Below the pieces are notes generated by a model that worked only from the letters and a program-made list of their open reading frames with translations, was not told the origin of the DNA and ran no database searches. Below, piece by piece: positions 121-7,480 of a DNA stretch of 14,756 nucleotides. The DNA lies in NCBI GenBank assembly GCA_002706585.1, contig PALU01000043.1:4325-19080 (forward strand). The letters run 5' to 3'. The DNA is from Rickettsiales bacterium. GTDB taxonomy: Bacteria > Pseudomonadota > Alphaproteobacteria > TMED127. The stretch's first letter is position 1. Each line of letters begins with the position of its first letter. Made by a program: the position numbers and the translations under genes.

Positions 121-2766
121 ATGAAACAAAATATAAAATTTATTAATATTGGTGAAAGAACAAATATTACGGGTTCTCAATTATTCAAAAAACTAATTTT
201 AGAGGATAATTATGACGAAGCAGTTTCTGTAGCAAAAGAACAAATAGATAATGGTGCACAAATAATTGATATTAATATGGATGAGGGATTATTAGATTCA
301 AAAAATGCAATGATTAAATTTTTGAATTTAATTTCATCTGAACCTGATATTTCTAAAGTTCCTTTTATGTTAGATTCTTCAAAATGGGAAGTTATAGAAG
401 CGGGTTTAAAATGTGTTCAAGGAAAATCTATTGTTAATTCAATCAGTTTAAAAGAAGGTGAAAATATATTTTTAGAACAAGCTGAGCTTATAAAATCTTA
501 TGGTGCAGCAGTTGTCATTATGGCATTTGACGAAGAAGGACAAGCAGATAATAAAGAAAAAAAATTCAAAATATGTGATAGAGCATATTCGACTCTAAAA
601 AAAATTGATTTTCCATTACAAGATATAATTTTTGATCCAAATATTTTTGCTGTTGCTACTGGAATAGCAGACCATAATAATTATGCTTTAGATTTTTTTG
701 AGGCTACAAAATTAATAAAAGAAAACCTACCATATGCAAAAGTTTCTGGAGGTTTGTCGAATGTCTCCTTTAGTTTTAGGGGAAATAATTATGTTAGAGA
801 GGCTATGCATTCATGTTTTCTTTATCACGCCATAAGAGCAGGCCTTGATATGGCAATTGTTAATGCAGGACAAATTACAATTTATGAACAGATTCCAGTT
901 GATCTAAAAAAATCTATTGAAAATGTTCTCTTTAACAGAGGTGATGATTCTACTGAAGCTTTAATTGAAGTTTCAAAAAAATACAGTAAAAATGTTGAGC
1001 AAAAAAAATCTAAAAAGTCTTGGCGAAAAAAGAATACAGAAGAGAGGGTTAAATATGCTTTAGTAAATGGGATCAATGAATTCATAGAAAAAGATACAGA
1101 ACTCTTGAGAAAAAAATTTAAAAAACCATTAGAAATTATAGAGGGACCACTTATGGATGGCATGAATGAAGTTGGAGATTTATTTGGATCCGGAAAAATG
1201 TTTTTACCACAAGTTGTCAAGTCGGCTCGAGTAATGAAACAATCGGTTGGCTATCTACTTCCTTTTATGGAAAAAGATCAAACAGAAAAAGAAACTAAAA
1301 AGGGAAAAATTCTTTTAGCAACTGTAAAAGGTGATGTTCATGATATAGGTAAAAATATTGTAGGTGTAGTTTTACAATGTAATAATTTTGAGGTGATTGA
1401 CTTAGGTGTTATGGTACCTGCTCAAAATATTATTGAAGCTGCTGTAAAAGAAAATGTTGATTTAATTGGTCTTTCAGGTTTAATAACACCTAGTCTTGAC
1501 GAAATGTGTTTCGTTGCAAGTGAATTAAGCAGAAATAATATTAACAAACCACTTCTCATTGGAGGTGCTACAACTTCAAAAATCCATACTGCAATAAAAA
1601 TTGAGCCATTGCTTGAATCAGGTGTATGCCATGTAACAGATGCTTCTAGAGCTGTTTCGGTCTCCACCAACTTAATTTCAAAAAACAAATGCAGACCATT
1701 TATTGAATTATTAAAAAAGGAATATTCAGAAATAAGATCAAACTTTGGGAAAAAAAAAGATATTTCAAAAGATAATAATTTTGAAAAATGTAGATCAAAC
1801 AAATTTAAATTTAATTGGAAAAATTACACTCCTCCAAAACCTAAACTTAAGAATATAAAAATATTTAATGACGTTAAAGTTCAAGAAATATTACCTTACA
1901 TAGATTGGAAACCATTCTTTCAAGCTTGGGAATTGCATGGAAAATTTCCTGAAATTTTAAAAGATAAAATAGTTGGTGATGCAGCATCTGAACTTTGGAA
2001 AGATGCCAATATAATGTTAAAAAAAATAATAAAAGATAATCTTATAAAGCCAAAAGCTGTTATTGGTTTTTGGCCCGCAAATTCAGTTAATGAAGATGTT
2101 GAAATTTATAATAATATCTCTAGGCAAAAAACTATCGCCAAGTTTTATTTTTTAAGACAACAAATGCAAAGAAACTCTTCTCATAGACCTAATTTTTGCC
2201 TAGCAGATTTTATTGTTCCTAAAGAAGAAAAAATTAACGATTACCTTGGTTGTTTTCTAGTAACAGCTGGAGATGAAATTGAAAAAATGGCTCAATCTTA
2301 TGAAAAAAAAAAAGATGACTATAACTCTATTTTAATTAAATCACTGGGAGATAGAATTGCTGAAGGTTTTGCTGAAAAGATGCATAAAGATGTGAGAGAA
2401 AAATTTTGGGGATATTCTCCAAAAGAAAATCTAAAAAATGATGATTTGATTATGGAAAAATATCAGGGCATAAGACCTGCACCAGGTTATCCAGCTTGTC
2501 CTGACCATACAGAAAAAGAAACACTTTTTAAATTACTTGATATAGAAAATAATATAAAGGTATCCCTAACTGAGTCTTATGCAATGTACCCCTCGAGTTC
2601 TGTTGCAGGTTTATATTTTTCAAATCCAAAATCTTCTTATTTTGGTGTAGGAAAATTAAAAAGAGATCAGGTTGAATCCTATGCAAAAAGAAAAGGAATT
2701 AGTTTAAAAGAAGCTGAAAAATGGCTAGGACCTAATCTTGATTATTCTCCAAAGCAAGCCGCGTAA
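121..2766 (+). CDS. metH: Cobalamin-dependent methionine synthase, folate/B12/activation subunit (MetH2)
   Basis: This protein transfers a methyl group from 5-methyltetrahydrofolate via cobalamin to homocysteine, making methionine in the cytoplasm. Its 881 residues match E. coli MetH without the N-terminal homocysteine domain. Domain order: a pterin-binding barrel (about 5-265, with GERTN at 11-15), a helical cap of the cobalamin module (about 305-390), the B12-binding Rossmann domain (about 395-530) and the S-adenosylmethionine-dependent activation domain (about 570-881). The B12 domain has DVHDIG at 405-410; His407 is the expected lower axial cobalt ligand. LSGLITP at 451-457 and GGATTS at 481-486 are the other cofactor-contact segments. 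The activation domain has [12 protein letters not shown] at 785-796. The missing homocysteine domain is supplied by the gene just upstream. The stop TAA shares its last A with the uvrD start. The host should need or make cobalamin (inference). Confidence 0.96.
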
Positions 2767-4910
2767 TGCAAAGTGATATTGATAAGATAAGTTTGCCAGA
2801 ACCCGATTTTTTAGAAAACTTAAATAGTCAACAAAAAGAAGCGGTAACCAATATTGATGGCCCTCTTTTAGTACTTTCAGGCGCTGGAACAGGAAAGACA
2901 AGAGTTTTAACTACAAGATTGGCAAATATTATCTTTAATAAAAAGGCTAAAATTTCAGAGATTTTATCTGTAACTTTTACAAATAAAGCTGCATTTGAGA
3001 TGAAACAAAGAGTCGAGAAAATTCTTAAGTTTCCAATTGAGGGAATGTTTATTGGAACCTTTCATTCAATAGGGGTTCGAATTCTAAGAAAGCATGCTGA
3101 ATTACTCGGTTTAAAAAGTGATTTTACAATTCTTGATAAAGAAGATCAATTGAGACTAATAAAACAGGTCTTATCCTCTATGAATCTTGACACAAAGAAT
3201 TACGTACCAAAGAATTTTTTGTATATGATTGATCAGATGAAAAACTTAGGATTTTCTCCTGATGAAATTTCAAATCATGAGTTTGAGATAAAATCTAATG
3301 GTAAATTAAGCGAAATATATAGTTTTTATCAAGAAAGGCTTAAAAATTTTAATTCTGTTGATTTTGGTGACTTGATTCTTTTGCCACTTAATCTAATGAG
3401 AAAAAATAAAGAAATATTAGAATTCTACTCAAATAAATTTAAGTATATTCTTGTAGATGAATACCAGGATACAAACTCCACGCAATATATGTTGCTAAGG
3501 TTACTAGCTGGAGTTAAAAAAAATATTTGTTGTGTAGGTGATGAAGATCAATCTATATACGGTTGGAGGGGAGCACAACTAAAAAATATTCTTAATTTTG
3601 AAAAAGATTTTGAAAATGCAAAAATTGTAAGACTAGAACAAAACTATAGATCAACAGCAAATATATTAGGAGCAGCAACAAGTTTGATTTCTGAAAATAA
3701 AGAAAGAATAGGAAAAAAGTTGTGGACAGTTGATCAATTAGGTAAGCCAGTCGAAATAATAAATATTGATAATGATGAATTAGAAGCGTCTTTTATTTGT
3801 AATAAAATTTCTGAATTTCAAAATAAAGGAATTAAATTATCAAATATTGCAATTTTAACCAGAGCAAGTTTTCAATTTAAGGATTTAGAAGATAGATTTA
3901 TAAAAGAAAGTATTAAATACAGAGTTGTTGGAGGATTAAGATTTTATGAACGTAGGGAAATAAAGGATGCAATTGCATATTTTAGACTGTTAGTGAATAA
4001 ATCAGATAATTTATCATTAGAAAGAATTGTAAATGTTCCGAAAAGATCTATTGGGCCTTCAACAATAAAAAAACTTTATGAAATCTCAAAAAATAATAAT
4101 ACATCACTTTTTGAATCTATAAAATTTGGTGTGTTAGAAAAAGTATTTACAAATAAAATAGAGAAAAATCTAATTCAATTTTTATCAATTATAGAAAAAT
4201 ATACCATGATGCTTGAAACTACTGATCATTCTGATGTAGCTGGTTCATTACTAGATGATTCTGGATATACTGAAATGTTACAAAAAGAGAAATCACCTGA
4301 GTCTGAAGGTAGACTTGAAAATTTAAAAAAGCTAGTAATTGATATTAGAAATAGAGACTCATTAGGTGATTTTCTTGAGGAAGTAAGTTTGCTTACAGAT
4401 ATTATGGACAATAATTTAAATTTAGAAAAAGTGTCTTTAATGACATTACATAGTGCTAAAGGACTAGAATTTGATTATGTTTTTTTACCCGGATGGGAAG
4501 AAGGAATTTTTCCAAATCAAAGAAATATAGATGAATATGGAACTAAGGGACTAGAGGAAGAGAGAAGATTAGGGTATGTAGGAATTACTAGAGCAAGAAA
4601 AAATCTAATAATTTCCTACGTAAATTTTAGAAAACAATATAACTATAGTTTTTATAGATCTTTGCCATCACGTTTTATAAGTGAATTACCAAAAAAAAAT
4701 TGTAAAATTGTGGTTTCTGAAGAAAAAAAAGCTGAAAAAAATAAACTCTTAAATTATTCAAATATTAACTTTTCTGTTGGTGACAAAGTTCTGCATAGTG
4801 AATTTGGAGAAGGCCAAATTTTAGGTATAAATGATAATAAGCTTCAGATTAGATTTAATAATAGTTCAGAAATAATAAAAATTTTCTCTGATTTTGTAAA
4901 AAAGATATAG
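2766..4910 (+). CDS. uvrD: UvrD/PcrA-type superfamily 1 DNA helicase
   Basis: This is an ATP-dependent 3'-5' DNA helicase of the UvrD/PcrA/Rep group, acting in nucleotide excision repair, mismatch repair and clearing of stalled replication or transcription complexes. Its 714 residues are normal for the family. Visible motifs in order: SQQKEAV near the N-terminus (Q-motif region); Walker A GAGTGKT at 39-45; motif II DEYQDT at 231-236; motif III GDEDQSIYGWRGA at 258-270; LEQNYRS (motif IV); TLHSAKGLEF at 560-569 (motif V); and GYVGITRAR at 603-611 (motif VI). The last 45 or so residues contain GDKVLHSEFGEGQILG, the small Tudor-like C-terminal domain through which UvrD/PcrA contacts RNA polymerase. 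This supports UvrD/PcrA over Rep. The start ATG overlaps the metH2 stop (TAATG) and has no clear Shine-Dalgarno sequence, so translation is probably coupled. Confidence 0.96.
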   Translation: MQSDIDKISLPEPDFLENLNSQQKEAVTNIDGPLLVLSGAGTGKTRVLTTRLANIIFNKKAKISEILSVTFTNKAAFEMKQRVEKILKFPIEGMFIGTFHSIGVRILRKHAELLGLKSDFTILDKEDQLRLIKQVLSSMNLDTKNYVPKNFLYMIDQMKNLGFSPDEISNHEFEIKSNGKLSEIYSFYQERLKNFNSVDFGDLILLPLNLMRKNKEILEFYSNKFKYILVDEYQDTNSTQYMLLRLLAGVKKNICCVGDEDQSIYGWRGAQLKNILNFEKDFENAKIVRLEQNYRSTANILGAATSLISENKERIGKKLWTVDQLGKPVEIINIDNDELEASFICNKISEFQNKGIKLSNIAILTRASFQFKDLEDRFIKESIKYRVVGGLRFYERREIKDAIAYFRLLVNKSDNLSLERIVNVPKRSIGPSTIKKLYEISKNNNTSLFESIKFGVLEKVFTNKIEKNLIQFLSIIEKYTMMLETTDHSDVAGSLLDDSGYTEMLQKEKSPESEGRLENLKKLVIDIRNRDSLGDFLEEVSLLTDIMDNNLNLEKVSLMTLHSAKGLEFDYVFLPGWEEGIFPNQRNIDEYGTKGLEEERRLGYVGITRARKNLIISYVNFRKQYNYSFYRSLPSRFISELPKKNCKIVVSEEKKAEKNKLLNYSNINFSVGDKVLHSEFGEGQILGINDNKLQIRFNNSSEIIKIFSDFVKKI

Positions 4911-4916
4911 TCTGAA

Positions 4917-5730
4917 TTGAAGAAAATTAAATTAAAATTAGATCAGGAGATTGAATTAAAAAATATTCTAGAATATTTTGAAAATGTAGCCTTTTTTAAA
5001 AAAGATAAAATTTGGAATTTAGATATTTTTTTTTTCTCAAAAATTGAAGAAATAATTGCAAAGGAATATTTAAAGGACAAAAATCTAAAATTTTTAAAAA
5101 TAGAAAAAAAAAACTGGATTCAAAAAAATATTCAAAAGGATAATGTAAGTTCTACTAAATTATTCTCTTTTTCTCAGGGATTAAAAAAAAATATAAGAAA
5201 AAAAAAAAAATCATCTTTATTTTCCAGCTGCAGAGGCTTTTGGAACTGGATCACATATTTCAACACTTTTAGTTATTCAAAATATTGAATATCTTTTTAA
5301 AAAATTAAAATTTAACTCTTATCTAGATCTTGGGGCTGGAACTGGAATTCTTTCATTTGTAATAAAAAAGCTTACTAAAAGGAAAATATTTTCTTCAGAT
5401 AACGACAAAAAAGTAGAAGATATATTTAAAAGAAATATGAAAATTAATCATTTACATGGATTTACATTCGTAAGATGTAATAATTTTAACCACAAAATTA
5501 TAAGAAATAAAAAATATGGGTTGATTGTTTCAAACATTCTTTATACTCCTTTGAAAAAATTGTGTAGAGATTTTTTTTTTAGGTTAAATAAAAAAGGATA
5601 TCTTATACTTTCTGGGATATTGATCAGCCAGTCTTCTTCATTAATATCGTATTATTTCAAGTTTAATTTTAGAGTTGTAAAAATAAATAAATTTAATGGC
5701 TGGGTTTCAATAATTTTTAAAAAGGTGTAA
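4917..5730 (+). pseudogene. prmA: Ribosomal protein L11 methyltransferase, split by a +1 frameshift at a poly-A run
   Basis: PrmA methylates ribosomal protein L11 using S-adenosylmethionine. The upstream frame (TTG at 4917, stop TGA at 5286-5288) carries the N-terminal L11-recognition domain, including KIEKKNWIQKN, like the family's IE-DW segment. It loses similarity after a run of 13 A at 5198-5210. The frame open from 5197 to the TAA at 5728-5730 continues the protein: AEAFGTGSHIST (family motif AFGTG-H-TT), LDLGAGTGILS (SAM motif I), an acidic motif II (SSDNDKK), SNILYTPL (family ANIL--PL), LSGIL and a final GW. That frame has a TAA at 5194, so the shift must lie after it, almost surely in the A run. 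Removing one A restores a protein of about 270 residues. All catalytic motifs are intact, so this is a sequencing error, a very recent mutation, or a gene read by polymerase slippage. TTG is the only plausible start; no in-frame ATG lies upstream of the A run. uvrD ends 6 bases before and pepP begins 10 bases after. Confidence 0.88.
5198..5210 (+). other. 13-A homopolymer at the prmA frame break (candidate slippage site)
   Basis: Thirteen consecutive A bases follow AG at 5196-5197. A second run of 9 A lies just upstream (5183-5191). The A run is the only sequence between the last stop in the downstream frame (5194-5196) and the start of recognisable PrmA catalytic sequence (about 5224), so the frame change must occur here. 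Poly-A runs of this length are known to provoke RNA polymerase slippage in AT-rich bacterial genomes, giving mixed mRNA lengths of which some restore the frame. They are also prone to replication slippage and sequencing error. The sequence alone cannot separate these. Confidence 0.7.
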
Positions 5731-5740
5731 CAAGTAAAAT

Positions 5741-7480
5741 ATGTATAACAAAATTGAATCTCTCTTAAATCAAATGCTAGAATATAAATATGATGCTTAT
5801 ATAATTCCTTCAACTGATGAGTTTTTAAATGAATATGTCCCATCTCAAAATAAAAGGCTGTTATGGATAACAAATTTTAGTGGATCTAACGGTATAGCAA
5901 TAATATCTAGAAAAAAAAAAATATTATTTACTGATGGCAGATATTTACTTCAAGCTAGAAAAGAACTACCAAAAAATTTTGAGATTATTGATATTAGTCT
6001 TGTAAATTTCAATGATTATTTGAAAGAGAATTTTAAAAAAAAAAAAATTCTCTTGGATACAAAGCTGTTTAAGATAGATTTTCTTGATAGACTTATTTTT
6101 AATTTAAAAGCAGTCAATAGTTCTATAACTCATGATAAAGTGCAAATAATTGATAAGCTTTGGGTTAATAGGCCTGTAGAAGAAAAATATAAAATTTTTC
6201 AGTTAAGTCAAAAATTATCAGGTTGTTCAACCACAAAAAAAATCAGCCAAATATTAAAAATTTATAGCAATATGGATTTTATTATTATTAGTTCTCCAGA
6301 ATCAGTTTGTTGGTTGCTGAATATAAGAGGTAAAGATCTTGAGCATACTCCTATTGTAATGAGTAGGATGATTTTATCAAAAAAAGAGGTTAAGATCTTT
6401 ATTGATAAATCAAAAATTCAAAATAAATTATATTCGTCTTATAATAATTTTTCATTTTATGAAATTGAATTATTTGAAAATCACTTAGGAAAAATTCCTA
6501 AATTTAGCAATGTTTATATCGATCATGAATTATCATATTTTCATTTTAAATTATTAAATAAAAAATCTAGGAAATTAAAGATTGGAATAGATCATTGCAA
6601 ACTACTAAAGTCAGAAAAAAATTCTGTGGAAATAAAATCAGCAAAAAAAAATCACGAATTTGATGCAATTTCTCTTATAAACTTTTTTTATTGGATTGAT
6701 AATTTAGATTTTAAAAAAAAAATTACTGAATATGAAGCATCAAAAAAACTTGAATACTTTAGAAAACAAAATAACAATTTTTTTTCACCTAGTTTTCCGA
6801 CAATCTCTGCAGTGGGATCTAATGGTTCAATAATTCATTATGAACCTAGGAAGAAAAGTAAAGTTATGACTTTGGGTAATTTATATCTATGTGACTCTGG
6901 AGGACAATATTATGGAGCTACAACTGATGTAACCAGGACAGTTTTTCTTGGAAAAAATCCTAATAAAATAATTAAATCATTGTATACATTAGTTTTAATA
7001 GGTCATTTAAACATTTCCATGCTTAAATTTCCTATTGGAACTCGAGGGCATCAAATAGACAGTATTGCAAGATACCCTTTATGGATGAAAGGTTTAGACT
7101 ACAATCACGGAACGGGTCATGGTGTTGGAAGTTTTTTAGGAGTTCATGAAGGACCATACAATATTTCTAAAAAATTTAATAAATTTCCCCTAAAACCAGG
7201 AATGATCTTTTCAAATGAACCTGGATACTATAAGAACGGAAAGTATGGAATTAGAATTGAGAACTTAATATTAGTTGTTAAATCGAAAGTTTCGGGTTTC
7301 CTTGAGTTTGATACTCTTACTTTATATCCATATGAAATAGATCTTATTGATAAGAGTATGCTAACTAAACTTCAAATAAAATGGATTAATGATTATCATG
7401 CTAAAATTTTTAAGAATTTATCTCCAAAAATTGACAAAAAAACTAAGTTTTGGCTTAAGTTAAAAACAAAGAAAATTTAG
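5741..7480 (+). CDS. pepP: Xaa-Pro aminopeptidase (aminopeptidase P, peptidase family M24B)
   Basis: This enzyme is a cytoplasmic dinuclear-metal peptidase that removes the N-terminal residue from peptides with proline in second position. Its 579 residues match the long form of aminopeptidase P, with two creatinase-like N-terminal domains (about 1-150 and 160-320) before the catalytic pita-bread domain (about 325-540). The five metal ligands are in place: Asp385 (in CDSGGQYYG), Asp396 (in TTDVTRT), His460 (in HGTGHGVG), Glu493 (in NEPGYY) and Glu507 (in IRIENL). His469 in VHEGP is the usual active-site histidine. AAGGTG at 5722-5727 could be a distant ribosome binding site. The gene contains runs of 11 A (5911-5921) and 13 A (6035-6047) but stays in frame, unlike prmA. 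It is the last gene of the plus-strand string, and its stop overlaps the recN stop on the other strand. Confidence 0.95.
   Translation: MYNKIESLLNQMLEYKYDAYIIPSTDEFLNEYVPSQNKRLLWITNFSGSNGIAIISRKKKILFTDGRYLLQARKELPKNFEIIDISLVNFNDYLKENFKKKKILLDTKLFKIDFLDRLIFNLKAVNSSITHDKVQIIDKLWVNRPVEEKYKIFQLSQKLSGCSTTKKISQILKIYSNMDFIIISSPESVCWLLNIRGKDLEHTPIVMSRMILSKKEVKIFIDKSKIQNKLYSSYNNFSFYEIELFENHLGKIPKFSNVYIDHELSYFHFKLLNKKSRKLKIGIDHCKLLKSEKNSVEIKSAKKNHEFDAISLINFFYWIDNLDFKKKITEYEASKKLEYFRKQNNNFFSPSFPTISAVGSNGSIIHYEPRKKSKVMTLGNLYLCDSGGQYYGATTDVTRTVFLGKNPNKIIKSLYTLVLIGHLNISMLKFPIGTRGHQIDSIARYPLWMKGLDYNHGTGHGVGSFLGVHEGPYNISKKFNKFPLKPGMIFSNEPGYYKNGKYGIRIENLILVVKSKVSGFLEFDTLTLYPYEIDLIDKSMLTKLQIKWINDYHAKIFKNLSPKIDKKTKFWLKLKTKKI
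6024..6054 (+). repeat. Perfect 11-bp inverted repeat with an all-A loop inside pepP
   Basis: The arms AAGAGAATTTT (6024-6034) and AAAATTCTCTT (6044-6054) are perfectly complementary and flank nine A bases. The A run reaches 13 because it includes the four A of the right arm. In the mRNA this forms a moderately stable hairpin within codons for an N-F-K-rich stretch. It is not followed by a T run, so it does not look like an intrinsic terminator. In so AT-rich a sequence it may be coincidental. Confidence 0.5.
7436..7461 (-). terminator. Weak candidate intrinsic terminator of the minus-strand string
   Basis: Read on the minus strand, AACTTAAG (7461-7454), loop CCAAAA and CTTAGTT (7447-7441) form a 7-bp stem with one bulged base. 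The transcript then continues in T, seven in all at 7442-7436, two of them within the stem. It lies about 16 bases past the recN stop and inside the pepP coding sequence. The stem has only two G-C pairs, so the call is tentative. The same hairpin has no T run on the plus strand and would not stop pepP transcripts. Confidence 0.35.

Follow-up and report, generated by a model that had tools for sequence, protein, structure and literature searches.

It has been reported that 12-50% of the transcripts of poly(A)-frameshifted genes in insect endosymbionts are corrected (PMC5009743, in the available part of that paper, citing earlier work), and a figure of about 30% for such endosymbiont transcripts is given in the accessible text of PMC3017870, which also cites earlier work. 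Genes of this kind are known from Buchnera and Blochmannia, and 'pseudo pseudogenes' have been described for AT-rich bacteria (Baranov et al. 2005). According to the excerpted text of PMC1088944 (Baranov et al.), a run of thirteen A is within the slippage-prone range, and a slippery run that homologues conserve in both place and length is a criterion for purposeful slippage. In the available portion of PMC5574713, Buchnera homopolymer deletions also increase with run length, transcription slippage on A/T runs gives mainly insertions, mostly of one base, and a restored reading frame was detected in no case. A literature search for transcriptional slippage in Pelagibacter found no paper. One set of metagenome-assembled genomes (MAGs) from Tara Oceans was produced, as the accessible part of its description states, by a pipeline that includes a second, contig-merging assembly step (PMC5769542).

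The window considered here is the whole stretch of DNA that was analysed, 14,756 nucleotides with 26.7% GC and no ambiguous letters. Its plus strand carries metH-like, uvrD/pcrA-like, prmA and pepP-like genes, and its minus strand recN, bamD, lpxC, ftsA, an unnamed ORF, ddl and murB; the unnamed ORF is presumably, by its position, ftsQ. Scans of the window against Rfam (gathering threshold) and for tRNA genes gave no matches. The methionine synthase gene (121-2766) matches the MetH model only from position 338 or 355, so that the first part of the protein is missing; this part may be encoded by a separate gene upstream of the window.

The prmA gene lies between uvrD and pepP, as it does in relatives in which it is intact, and its N-terminal and catalytic domains are in different frames in this contig (Table 1). 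By ORF reading, the N-terminal frame extends from a TTG at 4917, which is also TTG in the sister contig L001 and is matched by an initial L in the relative P0004, to a stop at 5286-5288. The catalytic frame, which is +1/-2 relative to the N-terminal one, is open from the TAA at 5194-5196 as far as 5730. With this stop on one side and recognizable homology from about 5224 on the other, the frame switch must lie between 5197 and about 5224, in or at the run of thirteen A. The preliminary description had placed the two frames of prmA, the switch at 5198-5210 and the stop at 5194 in just this way, and the reading of ORFs and sequence bears it out. A -1 programmed ribosomal frameshift of the dnaX type was considered and rejected, as the downstream domain is in the +1/-2 frame and the third frame is closed at 5270. 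The possibility that the catalytic half is an independently translated gene was likewise ruled out: its first ATG, GTG or TTG is the ATG at 5437, past the motif-I region, and the half is therefore not expected to be made alone. In the protein database this part of the window appears as P0005, with a start at an ATT codon, which is a choice of the gene caller and no evidence of a real start.

Table 1. Features of the prmA locus in the window, and loci at which the survey of long A/T runs found split genes.
Feature	Position or loci	Strand or genome	Remarks
UvrD/PcrA-type helicase gene	2766..4910	+	upstream neighbour of prmA
prmA N-terminal frame	4917..5288	+	TTG start; ends out of frame past A13
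A9 run upstream of switch	5183..5191	+	relative P0126 cut off here (from the P0126 protein)
TAA closing catalytic frame	5194..5196	+	just 5' of A13
A13 run, site of frame switch	5198..5210	+	+1 type; flanks G5197 and T5211
PrmA catalytic domain	5212..5730	+	PF06325 positions 139-295; first ATG/GTG/TTG at 5437
Aminopeptidase-P-like gene (pepP)	5741..7480	+	downstream neighbour; weak NCBIfam aminopeptidase matches
Second A13 of window	6035-6047		in frame within pepP-like gene; internal control for run length
Split-gene loci	L139, L140, L147, L150, L153, L158, L159, L165, L168	G001	A/T runs 12-14
Split-gene loci	L295, L300, L316, L327	G003	A/T runs 12-14

The catalytic half is recognized by the Pfam PrmA profile with an E-value of 1.2e-31 and 110.8 bits (cut-off 22), over positions 139-295 of 296. 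The N half alone finds no Pfam or NCBIfam family at E 1; it does align with the N half of full-length PrmA relatives. There are 131 relatives of the catalytic half in the protein database, and among the 120 of them that were listed the nearest full-length PrmA proteins are P0003, P0004 and P0006 (87, 86 and 76% identity to the catalytic half), which have 271-273 residues and cross the linker in a single frame. A search of viral contigs for relatives found none.

How far the two halves have been preserved can be judged from L001 (PAYV01000025.1, from the MAG 'Rickettsiales bacterium SP91'), which in one scan of the genome contigs has the same gene order as the window. Its prmA is in one frame, with a run of thirteen A that has an ambiguous base at its leading edge. 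The proteins of the window are 91% (metH), 92% (uvrD) and 91% (lpxC) identical to those of L001; the values are 68% for the N half of prmA, 75% for its catalytic half, 78% for pepP and 75% for recN. For this pair the N half has a dN/dS of 0.27 and the catalytic half one of 0.21, with 0.15 for pepP and 0.05-0.09 for metH, uvrD, recN, bamD and lpxC, the stop count for L001 in this comparison including codons with ambiguous bases. The window retains all 40 of the 40 PrmA columns in which at least 14 of 15 relatives agree, and apart from the break at A13 neither half shows a stop, a further frameshift or the loss of any conserved residue. The alignments suggest that constraint has been preserved on both halves and that, at the least, function was lost no earlier than the very recent past. 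Constraint on both halves and the 40 conserved columns together reject an old pseudogene, as the preliminary description had held. Its further statement that both halves look functional stands as regards constraint and fails for the catalytic half as a separate product, given the late start codon noted above. Similarly, its claim of no second lesion is correct for stops and frames, and needs amending in that the catalytic half has somewhat more private substitutions than its sisters. There are nine such outgroup-supported substitutions in the window's catalytic half, against three and four in P0003 and P0004, and none in its N half, against two and five; the concentration in the catalytic half gives a Fisher p of 0.019, on three ingroup sequences and small counts. 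It may hint at relaxed constraint after the run, and it should be noted that in six of the nine cases the new residue is present in other PrmA proteins.

Frame breaks in prmA are found in near relatives too. A protein search with the N half returned seven proteins: the window's own, P0124, P0125, P0126, P0038, P0127 and P0128. P0124 and P0125 have an out-of-frame tail in common with the window's N half, which implies a break of the same sense at the same run; as read from the proteins, their shift is +1. P0126 is cut at the A9 upstream of A13, and P0038 is in frame at the linker run and cut later, at another A run. The cluster to which these proteins belong thus holds noisy short contigs, with breaks at other A runs of prmA as well. 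P0125 differs by one residue before the run from the intact P0006, and so very close relatives exist both with and without the break. In P0127 and P0128 the PrmA N-terminus is joined to unrelated proteins, and these are probably chimeric contigs. A search for frame-broken N halves with an alignment that included P0127 and P0128 gave no new PrmA fragment among the best 120 of 4969 matches; all but ten of those 120 are other proteins, mostly aminotransferases.

A long A run as such is not unusual in this group, since runs of thirteen A are present in all 32 genomes of the related family and the window itself has a second one. The thirteen A at the break exceed the minimum of nine by which a pseudo pseudogene is recognized. 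Over 20 family loci, A runs in the PrmA linker have a maximum length of 4-15 bases, which is at least 12 in four of the loci (L081, L084, L088 and L093), each time in frame; a 21st linker locus, L094, has a run of 11. In the near relatives the run is about 9 to 16 bases, in and out of frame, as deduced from the protein sequences with AAA taken as the codon throughout. The preliminary description had proposed a comparison of run length across relatives, and its outcome is that the length is not conserved. Purposeful slippage by the criterion of PMC1088944 would call for a conserved run; as neither the length nor the presence of the linker run is conserved, programmed slippage on a conserved run was rejected. 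Comparison of the place and length of the run across near relatives and family loci gave no supporting evidence for programmed slippage.

The gene itself is not universal in the family. PrmA matches are present in 22 of the 32 genomes of the family of L001, the best match of each being without internal stop and one of them partial at a contig end. Four of the ten genomes with no PrmA match have a nearly full-length uvrD: in G005, G010 and G011 (L251, L250 and L253) pepP is the next gene after uvrD, prmA being absent there, and in G006 the contig ends after uvrD. Elsewhere in G005, G010 and G011 the PrmA profile finds weak partial matches (best 28, 44 and 23 bits), where the true PrmA of G001 and G017 scores 126-127 bits by the same profile. 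PrmA thus seems dispensable in the family, within the limits of draft genomes. About halfway along the pepP homologue of G010 the frame changes (L250:813-820, minus strand), not far from a run of eleven A; this is perhaps a further homopolymer frame break.

The question of whether such breaks depend on the kind of assembly was addressed by a survey of four genomes. Two are MAGs, G001 (SP91) and G003 (TMED13), which we assume to be products of the sort of Tara Oceans assembly work mentioned above. Two are labelled single-cell-style here: G002 (AG-915-O07), whose record bears the tag 'MAG' and whose AG-915 prefix we take to denote a single-cell genome series, and G004 (AG-911-L17). Other AG-911 genomes are GORG-Tropics single amplified genomes according to the available part of PMC12416821, in which AG-911-L17 itself is not named. 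Each A/T run of at least 12 was classed as lying within one open frame, as a frame-switch candidate or as other. The respective counts were 62, 11 and 8 in G001 (all 80 listed sites, 81 runs, one site via L001), 48, 8 and 23 in G003 (78 of 85 sites, 79 runs), 49, 1 and 8 in G004 (58 of 98 sites, with 70 of the 98 listed; 58 runs) and 59, 1 and 12 in G002 (72 of 87 sites, 72 runs). Breaks were confirmed by profile searches of the pieces flanking each run, which were kept separate.

Ten of the 11 candidates in G001 and four of the eight in G003 were confirmed. In G001 the broken genes are aroA, coaE, ubiG, trmJ, gmd, hom, an ispE-like kinase, a glycosyltransferase, an acyltransferase and a NeuB-like gene, and in G003 a murG-like gene, queA, a PdxH-like oxidase and a Ctp-like protease; some of these names are presumptive, being based on the matched families. 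L140, L147, L300 and L327 were confirmed by differing N-part and C-part domains of one expected protein, and the other ten by adjoining parts of one profile. L157 in G001 and L292, L309 and L325 in G003 were not counted as confirmed and were kept in the denominator. Among loci rejected as frame breaks, L176 and L293 are adjacent genes and L244 is the in-frame end of truB; the single candidates of G004 and G002 proved, by profile searches, not to be breaks.

Confirmed breaks at genic runs of at least 12 therefore number 14 of 129 in the MAGs and none of 110 in the single-cell-style genomes, neither of which is of the window's own genus (Fisher p 1.4e-4; the denominators exclude the 8, 23, 8 and 12 'other' runs of G001, G003, G004 and G002). 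G003 alone, with 4 of 56 against the same 0 of 110, gives p 0.012. The 20-kb prmA loci of G003 and G002 are collinear with about 84% nucleotide identity, so that lineage alone does not explain the excess in MAGs. For runs of 8-11, used as a control with profile-unchecked candidates, the candidate rate is alike in all four genomes (18 of 562 in G001, 13 of 302 in G003, 7 of 185 in G004 and 9 of 297 in G002). A 9-base run of the window was flagged as a candidate in the scan, and we take it to be the A9 just 5' of the same prmA break. The fetched stretches contain 587 and 2491 ambiguous letters in the MAGs G001 and G003 and none in G004 and G002. The shift is +1 in eleven of the 14 confirmed cases (p 0.057), a lean that simple stutter need not give. 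As the breaks in aroA, coaE, hom and murG are absent from the single-cell-style kin, they are best read as assembly artefacts, and such comparisons argue that the frame breaks in assemblies of this type would mostly not be real alleles.

On these grounds, the run of thirteen A is probably a one-base length error in the metagenome consensus. We infer that the window's contig is such a metagenome assembly and that the cause of error is the same. The error would arise from polymerase or PCR stutter in short-read data or, alternatively, at the point where reads or contigs that differ in run length were merged. The organism itself, an uncultured AT-rich alphaproteobacterium whose relatives point to a marine habitat, most likely has a normal prmA in one frame; the product would be the methyltransferase of ribosomal protein L11, its two domains joined by a lysine-rich linker. 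A length error is favoured by the difference between the two MAGs and the two single-cell-style genomes, by the full-length single-frame PrmA of near relatives, by contigs of the same cluster that are broken at this run, at A9 and at a later A run, and by the dN/dS of both prmA halves. It is disfavoured by a window that has no ambiguous letters and in which only one of the two A13 runs, its two longest, is off frame, by the lean of the sign to +1, to which P0124 and P0125 add, and by the private substitutions in the catalytic half, with their hint of relaxed constraint. The preliminary description had named a one-base homopolymer error as the main rival to its own proposal; in the light of the survey it is the better explanation.

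That proposal was rescue by slippage. If the run is real, RNA polymerase would be expected to slip on it, a minority of mRNAs, with one A fewer or two A more, would be back in frame, and these would yield some full-length PrmA, the gene being a 'pseudo pseudogene' like those of AT-rich bacteria. We consider this unlikely. The sign of the shift is against it, for one inserted base does not bring back the prmA frame; as single-base insertions dominate and prmA needs the loss of one base or the gain of two, rescue is expected to be weaker than in the opposite phase, and -1 ribosomal frameshifting would be no help where the needed change is +1 or -2. Nor was any break seen in the two single-cell-style genomes, whose long runs are similarly numerous. 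On the other side are the length of the run, the endosymbiont correction rates and the dependence of Buchnera deletions on run length, the signs of purifying selection in either half, and P0124 and P0125, in which this run is broken with the same sign. Rescue by slippage can thus be envisaged, but neither the unconserved run, the +1 sign nor the survey lends it positive support. A second reading of a real allele is that it is recent and inactivating, with prmA on its way out and no meaningful rescue. The lack of prmA at this place in three genomes of the family and the private substitutions concentrated after the shift speak for this; the otherwise undamaged sequence, the occurrence of most of the private residues in other PrmA proteins and the stop-free matches in 22 family genomes make it quite improbable. 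The tract might also behave like a contingency locus, with frequent replication slippage giving a population in which PrmA-on and PrmA-off cells are mixed and slippage acts as a buffer; the varied runs of the near relatives and the near identity of P0006 and P0125 up to the run could be cited for this. It is very improbable that it does, as the run is not kept in the family, where the long linker runs are all in frame, and other prmA runs vary too (P0126, P0038), as noise would. The specific form of it, in which a fast-changing linker tract flips cells between full-length PrmA and a free substrate-binding domain and slippage by RNA polymerase gives low enzyme in 'off' cells, is hardly credible; if it held, ribosome modification would be subject to a poly(A) contingency locus in ocean bacteria that are probably free-living.

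The main lesson at present is one of caution: in this AT-rich family roughly a ninth of the genic A/T runs of at least 12 are confirmed as off frame in the two MAGs surveyed, against none of 110 in the two single-cell-style genomes, and frame breaks at such long runs should not be called pseudogenes or recoding without reads. Were the thirteen A real, the off-frame run would be of a sort known from other AT-rich bacteria, and slippage-tolerated frameshifts would be extended from insect endosymbionts to ocean bacteria.

The likeness of the locus to PrmA (PF06325) lies in the catalytic profile match, the alignment of the N half and the placement between uvrD and pepP, and it differs in having the halves in separate frames and an N half that alone has no curated family score. 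With the poly(A)-frameshifted genes of Buchnera and Blochmannia it has in common a single indel in a long A run, in a gene otherwise intact and apparently constrained and in an AT-rich genome. It differs from them in a sign that is not the one rescued by single-base insertion and in that two single-cell-style relatives of the window have no such breaks; we presume, moreover, that the window's relatives are free-living ocean bacteria. Thermus dnaX, a case of transcriptional slippage, also has an A run inside a coding region, with short and long products possible. In dnaX, as the available text of PMC1088944 has it, the zero frame leads to the long product and the short product is functional; in prmA the run length is not conserved. 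With the homopolymer indel errors of metagenome assemblies, finally, the locus shares a break confined to one of the window's two longest runs, and breaks of this sort occur in several core genes of the two MAGs and not in the two single-cell-style genomes.
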